NCBI RefSeq assembly: GCF_900100765.1
Contig: NZ_FNFO01000004.1
Location: forward strand, 124,001 to 188,000
DNA: 64,000 nt
Direction: 5' to 3'
From: Catalinimonas alkaloidigena
GTDB taxonomy: Bacteria > Bacteroidota > Bacteroidia > Cytophagales > Flexibacteraceae
Position numbers and translations under genes: made by a program. This document shows positions 26,799 through 33,573 of the stretch, in pieces. The notes beneath the pieces are model-generated. The model did not search any database. It worked only from the letters and a program-made list of their open reading frames with translations, and was not told the DNA's origin. How positions within the stretch are numbered: position 1 is the stretch's first letter; each line of letters begins with the position of its first letter.

Positions 26799-26937
26799 TG
26801 GTTTCAGGCGCGGCATGAAGCAACGTGACCGGGTTGGTCGCCCGCCGTGCCCCATTCGTTTCCCGGATTTCCCGCCACGGCATTTTTCTCCTGTTTTTCA
26901 ATTGGATCGCATACGAGGTTTTGGTAACTCGCCTCGG

Positions 26938-29900
26938 ATGAAGCTCTTACAAAACGTCACCCTGTGGTTTCAGGCAGGCCATTCCGATAAAGTATACGAA
27001 GTCGATCTAGTAGAAACGCCGCAGGGGTTTCTGGTCAATTTCCGGTACGGCCGCCGCGGAGCAACGCTACGCGACGGCACCAAAACCCCCTCGCCCGTTT
27101 CCGAAGCCGAAGCGCAGCAAGTGTTTGACAAGCTCATTGCAAGCAAGAAAAAAGAAGGGTACCGCGAAACCACTGTCGCGCCGGCCGTCACCACTGCGCC
27201 TCCCCTCCACGTCTCTGCCGAAACGCCTTCCCGGTTGTTGCAACAGCTACATGCTGCGTTACAGCAAGGTGATACTTCCGAGCGGCCGCTAACCCGGCTG
27301 GTTTGGCAGGTGGGTGAGTTGCGCCTGCCCGAAGCCGTGCCCCTGTTGGTGCAGCAGCTTCCCCGCGCCGATGAGTTGCAACAATATTGTATCGTTTGGG
27401 CCCTGGGTCGGTGCGGTAGTAAAGACGCGGTGCCGGTACTGGAACAGCTTTACCAGGGAAAAGCCACCAAAGAAAAAGTACGGCGGATTACCCACGCGGC
27501 ACTCCTGGCCCTGACGGATGGTCCTACACGGAGAGTCGTACTCGATGCCGTCTTGACCGAATTGCCCGCCGATCTGGCAAAAGAAGTTCGTCGGGGCTCG
27601 ACCGCAACGGCACGATCCGTCGCTGAGCGCCATCTCGCTCGTCCCAAGCATGCCTACCTGTTGGAACTTCTCTACCTGCTCGCACCCGATTTTCCGGCCG
27701 CCCGCGAGGTAGTGTCGAGGCAACTCCGTACAATGCCACTGGAAGCGGGCACCTTCCGGTCGCTCCGGCATATTTTCAAAATCGCTGAGTTCCGGGACGA
27801 TGCCGCCGTTTTTGCACAACTGGCCTACCGTTTTGAGAAAGCTAAGCACGCCTTTCGGCAAGGGTCGTCGTACTACCGTCGTCAACGCATCTACCTCGAT
27901 GGCGAGTGGGTGCCTGTACAGCAGGAGCTAACCCAAGAAAACAGTCGGCTGGCTTACTCGGAACGGACCCGCCACTACCTGCGTCGACGGGTCTGGCGTA
28001 CGCTCCGGCGTTTGGGAGAGCGAGGTGATGCCGATTATACCGCCTGGGCTGCCCAGGTACTGCTCCAGTTTTCTGATGCGCAGGATCAGGGCGAAGTCCG
28101 GACGATCCGCCGGTCGTGGTGGGACTGGAAGGCCCGGATGATGCGCGAAAAAGTCAAGTATTACGACACCTACGCCGGCTACCTGGCGTTCAATCACATT
28201 CTCTACACCAACAGTCCGCGCTACGAACTGAAACGCAATCGCTGGGCCTGGACTTGCCAGGGCGAATACCAACCCGGCCAACCTGCCCCCAACGCGCGCG
28301 AAGAGGCCTTCCCTCAGCTTTGGGACAAGAGTCCAGAGCCGATCCTGCTGCTGTTAAGTGAAAGCACCAGCGAACGCGTATTGCAGTTTGCCGAGAAGGT
28401 GTTTCGGGCCAATCCCTCGTTCAGTAAACACATCAAAGTAGCGCATCTGGTGAAGATGCTGCAACAGCCGTCGCTTCTTGTGAACCGGCTGGCCCTGGAA
28501 CTGGCCGCGGCCCATTACGACCCGGCTGCGCCGGATTTGGCGCTGGTCCGTGCGATGTTGCAAAGTCCGCTGGTGGAAGCGCGCGACCTGGGCTGGACGT
28601 GGGTCGAAGCCCAAACGGCGTATTTCCTTCACGAGACGCTCTTGTTCGCCGATCTGTTATTGAGTCCGTTTGCCGACGTGCAGGAGCGGGCGCATCAGGA
28701 ACTCGCGCAGGCTACGCTACCGGAAACACAGACCGAACTGATGGTGGCGCACGTGCTGGCGCAGGTACTCCAATGTTCTTCGGAAGCGGATCGCCCTTGT
28801 CTGGAGCGTGCGGCACTGTTTCTCCCCACCCTCTTCGAAAAGAAACTACAAAACCTGCCGCTGGCGCAGATCGATCAACTGTTGCACCACCCGCTGCCGG
28901 AGGTGCAGGCCCTGGCCGGACGCATTCTACTGATTCACCAGACGCCGGTCAGCGACCTGCCCCCGGAGTTGTTAGGCACCCTGACCGGTTCGCCGCACGC
29001 CGCCGTACGTCAGGTAGGCGTGGCGCTGTTCGGCAAACAGACCGACGACGAACTGCTGGCCGCACCGAACCTGCTGCTGGCCTTTGCCACGGCTCCCTAT
29101 CCGGAAGTACGCGAAGCCGTACGGCCCATCGTCCAACGGCTGGCAGCCGGTCACCCCGACTTTGGCACCACCCTACTGGAGCAACTGCTGCCGTTCTTGC
29201 GCCGGAAAGAAACCTATGAAGGACTGCACGACGACCTGCTGACGCTGGTACAGGAGGCACTGCCCGAAGCGTTACGACAGCTCAGCCCGGAAACGGCCTG
29301 GGAATTTCTCACCTCCCGCCGCCCGACGTCACAACGATTGGGTGCACAGTTGCTGGGCACCACGCTCCGGGGCGAGGCGCTTTCGGTACGGCAGTTGGTC
29401 CGGCTGGCCAACCACGAGATGTTGTCCGTTCGCCAGTGGGTGGGGGCGCAATTCGAAGCGCAGACCGACCGCATGAAAACACAACCGGCCGAAGCGTTAC
29501 GGCTGCTCGATGCATCGTGGGAGGATGCCCGGCAGTTCGGCTTTGCCTACTTCGAGCAGCATTTCGATGAAGCGACCTGGACACCGGAGCTGCTGGTTTC
29601 CGTTTGTGATAGCACTCGGCCCGACGTGCAAGCGTTCGGTCGGAAGCTGCTCGATCAGTACTTTAAGAAAGAAGACGGACAGACGTATCTGGTGCAACTG
29701 AGTCAGCACCCCGCCCCGGCCTTGCAACAGCAGGCAACACAGTACCTTGAAGACTACGCCGCCGGGAAACCCGATGTGCTGGAAACACTCACGCCCTATT
29801 TTCAGACCGTGCTTTCGCAAGTCAACCGCAGCGGCCGGGCCAAGCGCGACGTATTCGCCTTCTTGAAAGCCGAAGCGCTCAAAAGCCGGGCGGCCGCCGA

Positions 29901-30063
29901 GATCATCGCGCCCCTCATCACGCGCCAGTCCCTCACGATGGCCGTAGCCGACAAAGCCGCGTGCCTGCAAATTTTACGCGACCTGCGCCAGGCGTATCCC
30001 GATCTGGAGCAACCGCTTTCCATTCGTTCTGTTCGTACCTATTCCTCTGATCATGCAGTTTGA
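26938..30063 (+). CDS. WGR-domain HEAT/ARM-repeat protein of the retron locus
   Basis: 1041 residues from ATG 26938; an upstream ATG at 26815 would add a disordered 41-residue lead and was not chosen. Residues 1-75 are a WGR-like domain (KLLQNVTLWFQAGHSDKVYEVDLVE ... FLVNFRYGRRGATL), a nucleic-acid-binding module also seen in PARPs. The remainder is a long helical solenoid of HEAT/ARM-like repeats rich in Leu, Ala, Gln and Arg (for example LQQYCIVWALGRCGSKDAVPVLEQL, and many repeats from 560 onward). No enzyme motif seen, so it is probably a scaffold or nucleic-acid-sensing component. Its last 11 nt overlap the next gene's start, so the two proteins are translationally coupled and probably act together, most likely as effectors of the retron downstream. 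Confidence 0.88.
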   Translation: MKLLQNVTLWFQAGHSDKVYEVDLVETPQGFLVNFRYGRRGATLRDGTKTPSPVSEAEAQQVFDKLIASKKKEGYRETTVAPAVTTAPPLHVSAETPSRLLQQLHAALQQGDTSERPLTRLVWQVGELRLPEAVPLLVQQLPRADELQQYCIVWALGRCGSKDAVPVLEQLYQGKATKEKVRRITHAALLALTDGPTRRVVLDAVLTELPADLAKEVRRGSTATARSVAERHLARPKHAYLLELLYLLAPDFPAAREVVSRQLRTMPLEAGTFRSLRHIFKIAEFRDDAAVFAQLAYRFEKAKHAFRQGSSYYRRQRIYLDGEWVPVQQELTQENSRLAYSERTRHYLRRRVWRTLRRLGERGDADYTAWAAQVLLQFSDAQDQGEVRTIRRSWWDWKARMMREKVKYYDTYAGYLAFNHILYTNSPRYELKRNRWAWTCQGEYQPGQPAPNAREEAFPQLWDKSPEPILLLLSESTSERVLQFAEKVFRANPSFSKHIKVAHLVKMLQQPSLLVNRLALELAAAHYDPAAPDLALVRAMLQSPLVEARDLGWTWVEAQTAYFLHETLLFADLLLSPFADVQERAHQELAQATLPETQTELMVAHVLAQVLQCSSEADRPCLERAALFLPTLFEKKLQNLPLAQIDQLLHHPLPEVQALAGRILLIHQTPVSDLPPELLGTLTGSPHAAVRQVGVALFGKQTDDELLAAPNLLLAFATAPYPEVREAVRPIVQRLAAGHPDFGTTLLEQLLPFLRRKETYEGLHDDLLTLVQEALPEALRQLSPETAWEFLTSRRPTSQRLGAQLLGTTLRGEALSVRQLVRLANHEMLSVRQWVGAQFEAQTDRMKTQPAEALRLLDASWEDARQFGFAYFEQHFDEATWTPELLVSVCDSTRPDVQAFGRKLLDQYFKKEDGQTYLVQLSQHPAPALQQQATQYLEDYAAGKPDVLETLTPYFQTVLSQVNRSGRAKRDVFAFLKAEALKSRAAAEIIAPLITRQSLTMAVADKAACLQILRDLRQAYPDLEQPLSIRSVRTYSSDHAV

Positions 30064-31714
30064 ACATAAATACCTGGGGCAATCGTCCGTAACCAGCCAG
30101 GCCCGGTCGGTCGACATGCAGTTTACGCCCGACCTCTACCGTCCGCCGACGTTCTTTTCGGGCAAACTGGCCCAACCCATCGCGTTTCGGGAGGCCATGT
30201 CGGCGCTGCACCACGTGGTCGTTTCCGACCTGCGCTTTCATCCGAGAGACAAGTCCGACTACAAGGCGTGGGCCGCACAACAGGAAATCGCTCAGCTGGA
30301 AGAGTTGATGGCGGGGCGGGGCGAGTTGCGCGCACAAATTCAGGGGTTGCGCGAGCAGTTGGGCACGGTTCACGAAGCGATGCACAAGATCCGTAAGCCG
30401 TTTTACGACGCCCGGCAAAAGTTTTTCCAGTACATCTACCAACGCGACAAAGACCTCTGGTTCGTGCTCGATCCGGTCATCACGGTCCATCCCGACGAAG
30501 TCTTTTTCGAGTGTTTCAGCCAGGACGAATCGAGCTACGGCAAGCTGAGTTGCAACTTCGAGGTGTTCCGCGACATGCAGGAGTTTGCCTGTGGCACGAC
30601 CAACATCGACTACTCGGCGGCGCTGTACAACGAGTTTCAGAAGATCCGCGACTACAAAGAGACCAAACTACACATCGACCCGAACGGGTTTGTGGTGCAA
30701 ACCACGAACGAAGATGCCTTTACAGAGGTCAAGATCGACCTGCCCGACAGTTGGGTGCGTGGCTTTCTGCAAGTAAGCTCGGCGATGACGATGCCCATGA
30801 TTCAGGTCGACCTGCACCCGATGGACGTCCACAACCTGTGCTTTGTGCTGCGTCGCCAGAAAGAAAAGATAGGTCCGCGTTCGCTCCGCTACCTACTGAC
30901 GCCCGGTGAGCCAGTGAAATTACTGCTGGAGCCCTGGAACCTGGAGATCACATGCCCCCGCTCCATTTATACCGGCAGCGAGGCGCACAATATTCGCGTG
31001 TGGGGCCGCCGACGGCTTCTGATTCTGGAGCGGTTAGTTCCGGTGGCCCGGAAGTTTACCGTCCATCTCCTTGGCACAGGCATGCCTTCGTTCTACCAGG
31101 CCGACCTGGGCGATCTTCAGTTCACGCTGGGACTTTCGGGCTGGACGGCCAACGACTGGTCGCAGGCGGGGAACTTCGACCTGCTCGCGCCGCGAACGCA
31201 GGTCGATCTGGTGACGAAAGAAAAGATTTTCCAGGCGCTGAAAAAAGAGTGGTACGGCACTTCGACGGCGTTGAGCCAACGTCTTGGGTTAGAGAACCGC
31301 GTGGTGGAAGGTGCGCTGGCGGCTTACACGCAGGCGGGCCGCGTCATCTACGATCTGAACAAAGGCGTCTACCGCGTGCGGGAACTGAGTCAGGAACCGC
31401 TGGCCCTTGATCAATTGCGGTTTTCGAATCCGCGCGAAGAAGAAGCCTCACGACTGGTGCAGGAAGGTAAGGTGCTGATTACCACCGAAAATCGTACGGA
31501 CGAAGGGCTGCAGCTGGTCGGGCGGGTGGAGGACAGACGGCGGACGTTTCATCCGAAACTGCACCTCGACCGGGACGAGCGCATCACCTCGGCCGAATGC
31601 ACATGTAACTTCTATCAGCAAAATAAGCTGTATCAGGGCCCTTGTGGCCATATGCTGGCCCTGAGGCTAGCGCAACAACGGAAAGGGTGGTATTCGCCGA
31701 TGTCGATGAATTAG
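30053..31714 (+). CDS. Winged-helix/SWIM zinc-finger protein of the retron locus
   Basis: 553 residues; its ATG overlaps the upstream stop region by 11 nt. A coiled-coil segment (about 80-110; IAQLEELMAGRGELRAQIQGLREQL) is followed by a mixed region. A winged helix (about 384-440) reads TKEKIFQALKKEWYGTSTALSQRLGLENRVVEGALAAYTQAGRVIYDLNKGVYRV. A SWIM zinc finger is near the C-terminus, C516-x-C518 ... C531-x-H533. SWIM and winged-helix modules bind nucleic acid or proteins. From memory, one retron type in the published classification pairs an ARM/HEAT protein with a winged-helix-SWIM protein, which is the arrangement here. The retron RNA starts 47 nt after its stop. Confidence 0.87.
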   Translation: MQFEHKYLGQSSVTSQARSVDMQFTPDLYRPPTFFSGKLAQPIAFREAMSALHHVVVSDLRFHPRDKSDYKAWAAQQEIAQLEELMAGRGELRAQIQGLREQLGTVHEAMHKIRKPFYDARQKFFQYIYQRDKDLWFVLDPVITVHPDEVFFECFSQDESSYGKLSCNFEVFRDMQEFACGTTNIDYSAALYNEFQKIRDYKETKLHIDPNGFVVQTTNEDAFTEVKIDLPDSWVRGFLQVSSAMTMPMIQVDLHPMDVHNLCFVLRRQKEKIGPRSLRYLLTPGEPVKLLLEPWNLEITCPRSIYTGSEAHNIRVWGRRRLLILERLVPVARKFTVHLLGTGMPSFYQADLGDLQFTLGLSGWTANDWSQAGNFDLLAPRTQVDLVTKEKIFQALKKEWYGTSTALSQRLGLENRVVEGALAAYTQAGRVIYDLNKGVYRVRELSQEPLALDQLRFSNPREEEASRLVQEGKVLITTENRTDEGLQLVGRVEDRRRTFHPKLHLDRDERITSAECTCNFYQQNKLYQGPCGHMLALRLAQQRKGWYSPMSMN

Positions 31715-31761
31715 CGCTTTTTCCACTTGTATACTTCTGAAAATCAAAACAATTTGAACCC

Positions 31762-31984
31762 GCAGTGACGCAGCCTCCACACCTTGCAACCCGGGCGGTG
31801 GATCGCCGTCCATGCACGTAGCTTTCGCTCGCATCACAGGCACACTCTTGACGGTGGCTGGTACACTACTACCCCTGATTGCAGTGTGATTTCCGGGAAC
31901 TCAATGCGTAGGGGTAGTAGTGTACCAGCCTTGAGTTGAGTGCTCCCGTCCCCAGAATGTTCGAAGGTAGGCTCGCGTCACTGC
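31762..31984 (+). ncRNA. Retron msr-msd non-coding RNA
   Basis: 223-nt transcript inferred between the SWIM gene and the RT gene. The ends pair as retron a1/a2: GCAGTGACGC (31762-31771) with GCGTCACTGC (31975-31984). After one bulged C, AGCCT (31772-31776) pairs with AGGCT (31969-31973). An AGC triplet at 31772-31774 directly after the first paired block offers the expected branching G at about 31773. The msr part (to about 31850) has short stems such as TCCAC/GTGGA (31776-31780/31798-31802) and CCGTC/GACGG (31806-31810/31850-31854). The msd part holds the long perfect hairpin listed separately. The RT start is 11 nt after a2. Exact RNA ends are unknown. Confidence 0.85.
31856..31930 (+). repeat. 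Perfect 21-bp msd stem of the retron
   Basis: Positions 31856-31876 and 31910-31930 are exact reverse complements over 21 nt, with a 33-nt loop (31877-31909). The arms begin GGCTGGTACAC and end TGTACCAGCC. A long perfect stem just upstream of a retron RT is the hallmark of the reverse-transcribed msd segment. This stem should appear in the msDNA. Confidence 0.9.
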
Positions 31985-31995
31985 TTTTTCCACTC

Positions 31996-33573
31996 ATGGC
32001 TGAAGAAACGCCCCCGCAACCCCGCACCCGTCAGGAACTTTACGATCAGGTCCGTCAGTCGTCGCGCGAAGCGGTAACGCTCCGCGAAATGGCCCGCATG
32101 GGCTTCTGGCCGAAAGGCCAAGGCATTCCCCCGATTCCGCAAGCGCTGTTGGAAAAGCAGCAAGCACTGCAACAGGAGTTGCAACCGCTCGTCGAGCAGA
32201 GCCGCAAGATGGAAGACCGGGTGCGGATGCTGAAAGAACTCCGGAAGAAACGGATGGCGGAATCGCGCCAGAAGCGGAAAGAAACCAAAGAACGACGCGA
32301 ACGGGAACGGCAGGCCCGGCAGGCCGCCTGGGAGCAGCGCAAAACGCACGAAATTCTTTACCTGGGTGAAGGGGTTTCAGGCGGTCTGTCGCAAACGGAC
32401 GACGATGCGCAAAAGCTCCAGCATTACCAGCTGCCCCGGTTCGAAAACGCGAAAGCCCTCGCCGAAGACATGGGCATTACGGTCAACGCATTACGATTCC
32501 TGGCCTACAACCGCCCCGTCTCGACCCTGACGCACTACCAGCGGTTTACCATGCCAAAAAAAACGGGTGGACAACGGCTGATTTCGGCCCCCATGCCGCG
32601 CCTAAAAGACGCGCAATACTGGGTGCTACACCACCTCCTGCAACTGCTGCCGGTCCACGAAGCGGTACACGGCTTTTGCGCAGGACGTTCGATCGTCAGC
32701 AACGCGAGGCCGCACGTCGGTCGACAGGTGGTACTCAACTTTGATTTGAAAGATTTCTTTCCGACGCTGACGTATACCCGCATCAAAGGGCTGTTTTGCG
32801 CGTTAGGGTACGCCGAAGCCATCGCTACGCCGCTCGCGCTGCTCTGCACCGAACCCGATACGGACGAGGTGACGCTCGACGGACAAACGTACTACGTCGC
32901 CAACGGCGAACGCTACCTGCCGCAAGGTGCCCCGACCAGCCCGGCCCTGACGAACCTGATCTGCCTCCGTCTGGACCGACGCCTCACGGGCTTGGCTACA
33001 AAACTTGGTTTTACCTACACCCGCTACGCCGACGACCTGACGTTCTCGGCCGATGCGGAGGGTATGAAGCACATCAATACGCTACGCGTGATGCTGCACC
33101 GCATTGTGGAAGAAGAAGGCTTTCAGGTACATCCGGATAAAAGCCGCGTCATGCGGAAGGGCAGCAAGCAGGAAGTCACTGGCATTGTCGTGAACGAAAA
33201 ACCGGGCGTAGACCGCGCGACCCTGCGTCGCTTCCGGGCGCTGCTGTTCCAGATCGAAAAGGACGGGATTGCCGGCAAGCGCTGGGGCACGTCGCCCGAC
33301 GTAGTGGCCGCCATCCACGGGTATGCCAACTTCGTCGCGATGGTCGATCCTGAGAAAGGTAAAGCGCTGCAGGAGCGCGTGGCCCGGATCATCGCCACGG
33401 TAGCGCCTCACTTCAAAAAACGTCCCCGGAAAACTTATCCGGCCCGGTCGGGCAAGTGGTTGCAAACCGCTTCCTCGGAGGCGTCGTCTTCGGAAGCATC
33501 CACGGACTCCGGCAATGTCAACGCAATTCCAGAGCCACCCGCCGCCAAAAAGCCCTGGTGGAAATTCTGGTAG
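31996..33573 (+). CDS. Retron-type reverse transcriptase
   Basis: 525 residues from ATG 31996, chosen because it lies just after a2; in-frame ATG 31957 and TTG 31936 would start inside the ncRNA. Residues ~15-120 form an Arg/Lys/Glu/Gln-rich helical extension, probably a coiled coil. The RT domain has HYQRFTMPKKTGGQRLISAP, LNFDLKDFFPTLT (motif A Asp), LPQGAPTSPALTNLIC, and YTRYADDLTFS with Y344-A-D-D347. Two retron-specific motifs are present, N236-A-R-P-H240 (NAxxH) and V394-T-G396. Overall style resembles myxobacterial Mx162/Sa163-type enzymes. The C-terminal ~40 residues are Ser/Glu/Ala-rich and end KKPWWKFW, an unusual tryptophan-rich tail. It makes branched msDNA from the upstream RNA. 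Confidence 0.93.
   Translation: MAEETPPQPRTRQELYDQVRQSSREAVTLREMARMGFWPKGQGIPPIPQALLEKQQALQQELQPLVEQSRKMEDRVRMLKELRKKRMAESRQKRKETKERRERERQARQAAWEQRKTHEILYLGEGVSGGLSQTDDDAQKLQHYQLPRFENAKALAEDMGITVNALRFLAYNRPVSTLTHYQRFTMPKKTGGQRLISAPMPRLKDAQYWVLHHLLQLLPVHEAVHGFCAGRSIVSNARPHVGRQVVLNFDLKDFFPTLTYTRIKGLFCALGYAEAIATPLALLCTEPDTDEVTLDGQTYYVANGERYLPQGAPTSPALTNLICLRLDRRLTGLATKLGFTYTRYADDLTFSADAEGMKHINTLRVMLHRIVEEEGFQVHPDKSRVMRKGSKQEVTGIVVNEKPGVDRATLRRFRALLFQIEKDGIAGKRWGTSPDVVAAIHGYANFVAMVDPEKGKALQERVARIIATVAPHFKKRPRKTYPARSGKWLQTASSEASSSEASTDSGNVNAIPEPPAAKKPWWKFW

Follow-up and report, generated by a model that had tools for sequence, protein, structure and literature searches.

What is the 223-nucleotide element that lies directly before the reverse transcriptase (RT) gene of Catalinimonas alkaloidigena, and in which form, as RNA or as reverse-transcribed DNA, does it act? 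The element occupies positions 31762-31984 of the stretch of DNA analysed here (64,000 nucleotides, referred to as the window), and the original prediction, made from the sequence, was that it is the msr-msd RNA of a retron, retrons being bacterial systems of anti-phage defence that make a small DNA hairpin from such an RNA. This has been borne out, and the retron can be given a name: as the type XIII models of PADLOC fit all three proteins encoded around the RNA, the locus is a member of an already catalogued type, retron type XIII. The three proteins, all encoded on the forward strand, are a WGR-domain and HEAT/ARM-repeat protein of 1042 amino acids (26935-30063; WGR_XIII, 1184.8 bits; Pfam WGR and HEAT_2), a SWIM protein of 553 amino acids (30053-31714; SWIM_XIII, 799.6 bits; Pfam SWIM and a weak winged-helix match), and the RT of 525 amino acids (31996-33573; RT_XIII, 650.1 bits), which has NAxxH, YADD and VTG motifs and ends in WWKFW. 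The identity of 31762-31984 as msr-msd RNA of retron type XIII is close to certain. For the explanation as a whole, i.e., a type XIII msr-msd RNA that is primed and copied into msDNA, which is then held by a clamp-like protein, we estimate a probability of about 0.6.

The RT is the single match to RVT_1 in the whole genome (7.1 Mb, 38 contigs). Its retron RT motifs are NARPH (region X), YADD, and VTG (region Y); we take NAxxH and VTG to be the letters of regions X and Y. Both regions are named in the extract of PMC6868368. In an alignment of six RT sequences (A1), N236, A237, H240, Y344, D346, D347, V394, T395 and G396 are invariant, and two of the six sequences have YVDD instead of YADD. The RNA ends 11 nucleotides (31985-31995) before the ATG at 31996, and this distance had been taken as settling the start of the RT; the start is plausible, and the ATG aligns with a methionine in four of the five A1 relatives, but the RNA alone does not settle it. 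Directly behind the RT is a gene encoding a NADAR protein (PF08719; 33590-34144), which matches the PADLOC candidate family PDC-M42C with 150 bits. It was considered as a part of the retron and rejected: NADAR was found in the flank of one of 80 related loci (L033).

The RNA is enclosed by an outer a1 arm (31762-31776) and an outer a2 arm (31969-31984), recognized by complementarity, by the pairing of own versus foreign arms and, for a1, also by folding. Within them, 31762-31771 (GCAGTGACGC) is an exact 10-bp complement of 31975-31984 (GCGTCACTGC), AGCCT (31772-31776) pairs with AGGCT (31969-31973), and C31974 is bulged. Further inside are the two msd arms (31856-31876 and 31910-31930), which are 21 nucleotides each, 100% complementary and separated by 33 nucleotides, so that the hairpin measures 75 nucleotides. 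Every coordinate of the original prediction (outer arms, AGCCT/AGGCT, 21-bp stem and 11 nucleotides to the RT ATG) was confirmed; the alignment of relatives adds an inward extension of the a1/a2 helix, in which ACCTT (31781-31785, the inner a1 arm) pairs with AAGGT (31964-31968, the inner a2 arm). Folded as RNA, 31755-31990 gives -110.9 kcal/mol (z -6.7), and none of 200 shuffled sequences was as stable.

The surroundings of the RNA have one peculiarity, a 12-nucleotide direct repeat, GCTTTTTCCACT, of which two exact copies (31716-31727 and 31983-31994) bracket it. This is the longest such repeat among 96 ncRNAs (the runner-up has 9 nucleotides and the median is 5.5); as the window alone has 12 nucleotides, it was rejected as a general feature of the family, and it could be the mark of a unit that can be duplicated or removed by slippage. 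The motif TAnnTTTG, which we take to be the Bacteroidota promoter, was sought before a1 and dismissed: 10 of 39 copies have it, versus 1 when a control stretch was examined, and there is no match in the window. In four relatives (L003, L004, L064 and L102), terminator-like hairpins with runs of T were seen by eye between the RNA and the RT, which suggests that RNA is made in excess of RT mRNA.

The original prediction had proposed that related loci be compared for compensatory changes in the msd arms and in a1/a2. The loci compared are the best 80 of at least 559 confirmed related RT loci in genomes. Forty-one upstream RNA copies, the window's included, were aligned with MAFFT (alignment A2), and A2 was the source of a covariance model, R1, the training copies of which had been picked for their CTTGC and CGA motifs. 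PADLOC uses msr-msd covariance models of its own in its searches (PMC9252829); R1 is a separate model built here. With R1, the RNA was found at 64 of the 80 RT loci, in 75 copies on the strand of the RT, and the sole match on the reverse strand was weak (L095, E 0.004). In the window R1 matches the conserved ncRNA core (31780-31967) with 152.9 bits (E 1.1e-37, 1.09 Mb searched), which is the one match in this genome. As R1 was partly built from the window's sequence, compensatory change over the 41 rows of A2 is better evidence than this score. Among the whole-genome scans with R1, part scored 6-9 candidates per genome, so that copies may be missed. No Rfam family reached its gathering score anywhere in the window.

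The RNA keeps company with the other two genes. Among the 64 loci with RNA, comparison of the window's proteins with flanking open reading frames found SWIM at 61 and WGR at 58; both were absent from the flanks of all 16 loci without RNA, where the flank was 6.5 kb at 12 loci and short at four (L047, L053, L067 and L076, with 0.07-2.1 kb before the RT). One exception is L092, which has the RNA and, over 6.2 kb of upstream DNA, neither SWIM nor WGR; RNA without either of the two is also present at L045 and L079, where 1.1 and 2.7 kb, respectively, lie upstream. At L007 (1498-4342), which came from a separate search, SWIM_XIII (501 bits) lies 10 bp before RT_XIII (502 bits), and R1 finds no RNA in the 4.4 kb of this locus; its RNA may be located elsewhere or be divergent.

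The 16 RNA-less loci with RTs close to RT_XIII (L025, L028, L039, L043, L047, L051, L053, L057, L061, L066, L067, L075, L076, L078, L087 and L098) may be part of another system. The order in the window (WGR, SWIM, ncRNA, RT) is that of most relatives, and in the cyanobacterial loci L041, L070 and L100 the RNA lies directly behind SWIM, 1-2 kb before the RT. Between ncRNA and RT, L041 has NYN-like and RNase III-like open reading frames (L041:4794-5426 and L041:5741-6454, by eye), and an RNase III end like that of L041 seems, by eye, to be encoded ahead of the RT in L028. Type XIII RTs were also sought in viral contigs and this candidate source was rejected: the 80 matches retained out of 241 are 29-41% identical, versus 46-58% for the 80 genome loci.

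The check on relatives was passed, and the pairing is conserved. In A2, 89.9% of the cells are paired, versus 72.0% after shuffling and at most 43.6% with the partners slid; 33 of the 41 pairs show changes on both sides, and the covariation score is 0.495, compared with 0.184 for shuffled and at most 0.139 for slid partners. A weak measure of covariation, the number of further pair types, gave 90 versus 84.5 and was equalled by 30 of 500 shuffles. In all 96 copies, the RNA's own 3′ stem arm outpairs 95% or more of the foreign arms, and its own a2 outpairs at least 95% of foreign a2 arms in 83 of 96 (in the window, every foreign a2). Two duplicate loci (L195 and L185) were excluded from these own-arm counts and from those of arm information, wobble pairs, TTGC and hairpin length given below, and the identity bands were recounted.

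Pairing of this kind shows that the helices are kept; the kinds of mismatch tolerated in them suggest in which nucleic acid they are kept. In 82 copies that are less than 90% identical, the msr helices comprise 717 Watson-Crick, 134 G-U, 5 A-C and 20 other cells, and the msd helices (lower helix, apical hairpin and variable stem) comprise 2,388 Watson-Crick, 0 G-U, 56 A-C and 26 other cells. G-U is present in the msr of 78 of the 82 copies and in the msd of none; Fisher's test of G-U versus A-C between msr and msd gives p 1.6e-43, for cells that are not independent of each other. The absence of G-U from 2,470 msd cells refers to the conserved helices together with the best ungapped duplex of each RNA itself, and omits the base of the stem (A2 columns 81-83/155-157; 0 G-U and 25 of 123 cells unpaired on A2). 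In the MAFFT register of A2, the helices at 89-98/141-148 and 104-108/130-134 hold some G-U and many unpaired cells, because the variable arms are out of register there. A cruder count from energy folding gives G-U in 36 of 2,064 stem pairs. In the a1/a2 duplex, 176 of 2,229 pairs are G-U, as RNA would show, and the msr hairpin (31793-31811) is rich in G-U with covariation of the RNA type.

An A-C opposition in RNA becomes a T-G wobble in the cDNA, and G-U becomes C-A; selection would therefore have acted, in the msd, on the strand made by reverse transcription. Thus, the msr helices look as if shaped by selection on the RNA, and the msd helices by selection on the strand copied from it. The window itself has one such A-C cell, A31838 opposite C31947 by alignment columns, and 31830-31963 folded as DNA gives z -5.4. 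Could the stem instead be an RNA structure only (a regulator, a terminator or a microRNA-like hairpin) that is never reverse transcribed? Six Rfam matches of miRNA type to the bare hairpin point that way, all of them far under gathering scores, so that a miRNA-type identity was rejected; the opposite mismatch patterns of msd and msr within the same RNAs, and the retron RT that adjoins them, speak against such a structure, and we consider it highly improbable. From these comparisons, the msd very likely functions as the reverse-transcribed strand. The mirror between A-C and G-U reveals, from sequence alone, the part of a retron RNA that is under selection as DNA; it could be tried on any retron.

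Where does reverse transcription begin? The original prediction placed the branching G in an AGC, at about 31773. This placement is not supported: G31773 sits inside the paired AGCCT/AGGCT, and AGC, the commonest priming motif of retrons, is not conserved in the type XIII copies, being found upstream in 36 of 94 copies versus 26.8 expected from shuffles. TTGC, in contrast to AGC, is present near the start of the core in 94 of 96 copies, and the msr of the two that lack it looks decayed. Because the R1 copies were picked by CTTGC and CGA, the fairest figure is that for copies outside R1 training, 53 of 55. Two RNAs (L085:4278-4462 and L198:1501-1662) keep the msd stem and have lost TTGC and part of the msr, and are likely to be decayed. 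The G of this TTGC in the window, G31786, at the inner end of a1, is the probable priming G. The extract of PMC6868368 describes the msr side of the a1/a2 stem as holding the priming G or stopping immediately before it, which suits G31786. Exceptions to the priming motif that it names are CAGA, ACGC and a retron in which no priming G is apparent.

The switch of wobble type between msr and msd implies that at least 31836-31949 would be in the msd, and the inner a2 arm (31964-31968) that the msDNA would be expected to start near 31963. The predicted template is thus about 31836-31963, and the predicted msDNA would have roughly 128-138 nucleotides and fold as one long hairpin, its exact ends being approximate. 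The earlier expectation that msDNA would include the 75-nucleotide hairpin holds to the extent that this hairpin lies within the predicted msd, but the product predicted here is more than the hairpin.

The 5′ arm of the stem (31856-31876) is variable in sequence among relatives, and the stem also differs between copies of the RNA at one locus. A single copy is present at 56 of the 64 loci, the window included; L029 and L032 have four copies each, and L034, L036, L049, L058, L062 and L063 have two each. Six of these arrays are tandem, at spacings of 227-348 nucleotides, and the spacing is 588 nucleotides in L062 and 1,451 in L036. Close pairs were also found in more genomes of the window's order (G433, G421, G415, G1013 and G1014), and in G424, G436 and G444 there are RNA copies on separate contigs. 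Over 21 same-locus pairs, identity is 88% in the msr, 90% in the tail and 65-66% in the arms; for comparison, the arms of weakly related RNAs reach about 53-57% when aligned by the same program. The length of the hairpin zone is 77-81 nucleotides in 92 of 96 copies, and the other four RNAs (L084, L077 and both copies of L062) have longer hairpins, of 89-101 nucleotides.

A stem that changes in sequence and keeps its length and pairing can be read in more than one way. It may drift neutrally, the pairing mattering only for RT termination or stability, with the clamp fold described below unrelated to it. Drift accords with the 17 Bradyrhizobium genomes, in which the hairpin varies no faster than the core (variable columns are 10 of 75 and 15 of 114, the same share) and there are five stem versions with paired changes matched on both sides; with the seven different-locus pairs with core identity of at least 97%, which keep the 5′ arm at 0.95 (range 0.88-1.0); and with the weak preferences at the arm positions, at most 0.31 bit each over 20 successive positions. 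It accounts poorly for the kept length of the hairpin, and for three tandem pairs (L190, L063 and L034) with core identities of 1.0, 0.98 and 0.97 and 5′ arm identities of 0.81, 0.74 and 0.80, which lie under those of all seven different-locus pairs. On balance, we regard neutral drift as somewhat unlikely.

Alternatively, the variable stem could be bait, i.e., a site for a phage methyltransferase, nuclease or DNA-binding protein, the range of which would be widened by arrays. The copies within arrays do differ most in the stem, and in G1013 and G1014, too, each array holds two different stems, a given array position carrying the same stem in both genomes. This sharing of stems speaks, as do the Bradyrhizobium counts, against fast diversification. 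There is a parallel in a type IX retron, in which, as far as the extract of PMC13405049 describes it, a phage protein that binds msDNA frees a HEPN RNase; because that retron is triggered through binding of its msDNA, it favours bait and is at the same time a precedent for msDNA as a sensor. Most loci, however, have one copy, and viral contigs contain no exact copy of the window's 21-nucleotide arm, nor does a 17-mer of it occur anywhere in the genome beyond its own two arms, with up to 2 mismatches allowed. For the same reasons (no viral match and no second genomic place), an origin of the stem as phage or host sequence was rejected. Bait is, in our view, an unlikely reading of the stem.

The reading preferred here, that the stem is held by a clamp, comes from the SWIM protein. 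The best AlphaFold model, from 42 orthologs, has a pLDDT of 74.7 (the other four models have 67-70), and in it residues 34-371 are predicted to adopt the clamp fold of PCNA, into which a coiled coil is inserted at about 68-131; a winged helix and the SWIM zinc finger follow. VIA-align superimposes it on archaeal PCNA with Z 21.3 and 2.8 A over 233 of 244 residues (Z 20.8 for human PCNA); with Foldseek, the 50 matches listed all belong to PCNA or to 9-1-1 clamps, the best with E 3e-10, and among the viral fold matches listed, many carry PCNA or clamp names. Thus, the SWIM_XIII protein is predicted to have the two-domain fold of PCNA. The sequence gives no such indication: Pfam, searched with 42 members, returned SWIM and a weak winged helix, while the 25 of 41 families listed include none for PCNA, and a PDB sequence search returned no PCNA among 14 sequences up to E 10.

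The likeness to PCNA and 9-1-1 sliding clamps is in fold only, with 6-14% identity to PCNA among the matches listed; unlike these clamps, SWIM_XIII carries the coiled-coil insert and, at its C-terminus, an additional winged helix and SWIM finger. Identity to the window's protein is 49-63% among its 41 orthologs, and their invariant basic residues include R46, K197, R199 and R319-R321. The helices presumed, by analogy with PCNA, to line a ring are not uniformly basic, with a mean net charge that ranges from -0.64 to +3.07, and no clamp loader was seen in the cassette. For the WGR-HEAT protein, AlphaFold (pLDDT 89.3) gives a WGR-like N-terminus followed by helical repeats, and a fold search returned HEAT-type superhelices with low TM-scores, with no enzyme among the 50 matches listed.

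How might these parts work together? The RT (31996-33573) would bind the RNA, prime at the 2′-OH of the G at the inner end of a1, and copy the template leftward, starting at about 31963 and stopping at about 31836 or slightly beyond it. The SWIM protein (30053-31714), alone or as a ring, would then hold the double-stranded stem of the msDNA, and the WGR-HEAT protein would be a scaffold or an effector arm, inactive within the complex of RT, msDNA and clamp. A phage that alters, cuts or captures the msDNA would free the WGR-HEAT protein and so lead to abortive infection, which is the outcome reported for other retrons. This mechanism, in which a SWIM clamp sits on the msDNA stem and the effect of WGR-HEAT is released by a phage, builds on one predicted structure of the SWIM protein and is put forward tentatively, at less than even odds. 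A clamp that senses length and duplex form, not sequence, would explain a variable stem with kept length and Watson-Crick pairing. By extension, it is conceivable, though we would not bet on it, that type XIII retrons are clamp retrons in general, i.e., that the sequence of the stem is free and its length and pairing are kept, with arrays in some genomes of 2-4 copies that differ in their stems on a near-constant framework. The aromatic tail of the window's RT (WWKFW, within 33550-33573, read by eye against the tails of relatives) is a candidate for a clamp-binding peptide and is not general: among the RT C-termini of L024-L103, again by eye, many from Bacteroidota, myxobacteria and other groups have the WWKFW type behind a variable linker, those of Alpha- and Betaproteobacteria have hydrophobic, probably membrane-spanning segments instead, and those of most cyanobacteria have neither.

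Earlier descriptions of the arrays, of the type XIII RNA or of the clamp fold may exist, in Mestre et al. 2020, which reportedly defines the retron types, or elsewhere. In searches of the literature for the type XIII name, the only mention found in the texts returned was the PADLOC label of a Variovorax strain (PMC11953036, in extract), and among the matches listed no title or abstract beginning concerned a retron with SWIM/WGR, a tandem or hypervariable msd, or PCNA or a sliding clamp. Compared with retron type XIII as catalogued in PADLOC-DB (RT_XIII, SWIM_XIII, WGR_XIII and HEAT-ARM_XIII), the window's proteins are without any distinguishing difference; what the comparison of relatives yields is a working model of the RNA, a corrected priming site and a boundary for the msd. 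By the published description in the extract of PMC6868368, the RTs of the myxobacterial retrons Mxa1 (Mx162), Sau1 (Sa163), Mxa2 (Mx65) and Nex2 (Ne144) likewise have an extended N-terminus, and the precursor RNA of Mx162, at 241 nucleotides, is near the window's 223; the priming G is in CAGC in Mx162 and Sa163 and in GAGC in Mx65, whereas the type XIII copies here have TTGC. If the clamp fold is confirmed, the suggested sensing of msDNA would differ from that by the msDNA-binding winged helix of a type IX retron, as given in the extract of PMC13405049, and a sliding clamp of the replication type would be part of a reverse-transcription immune complex.
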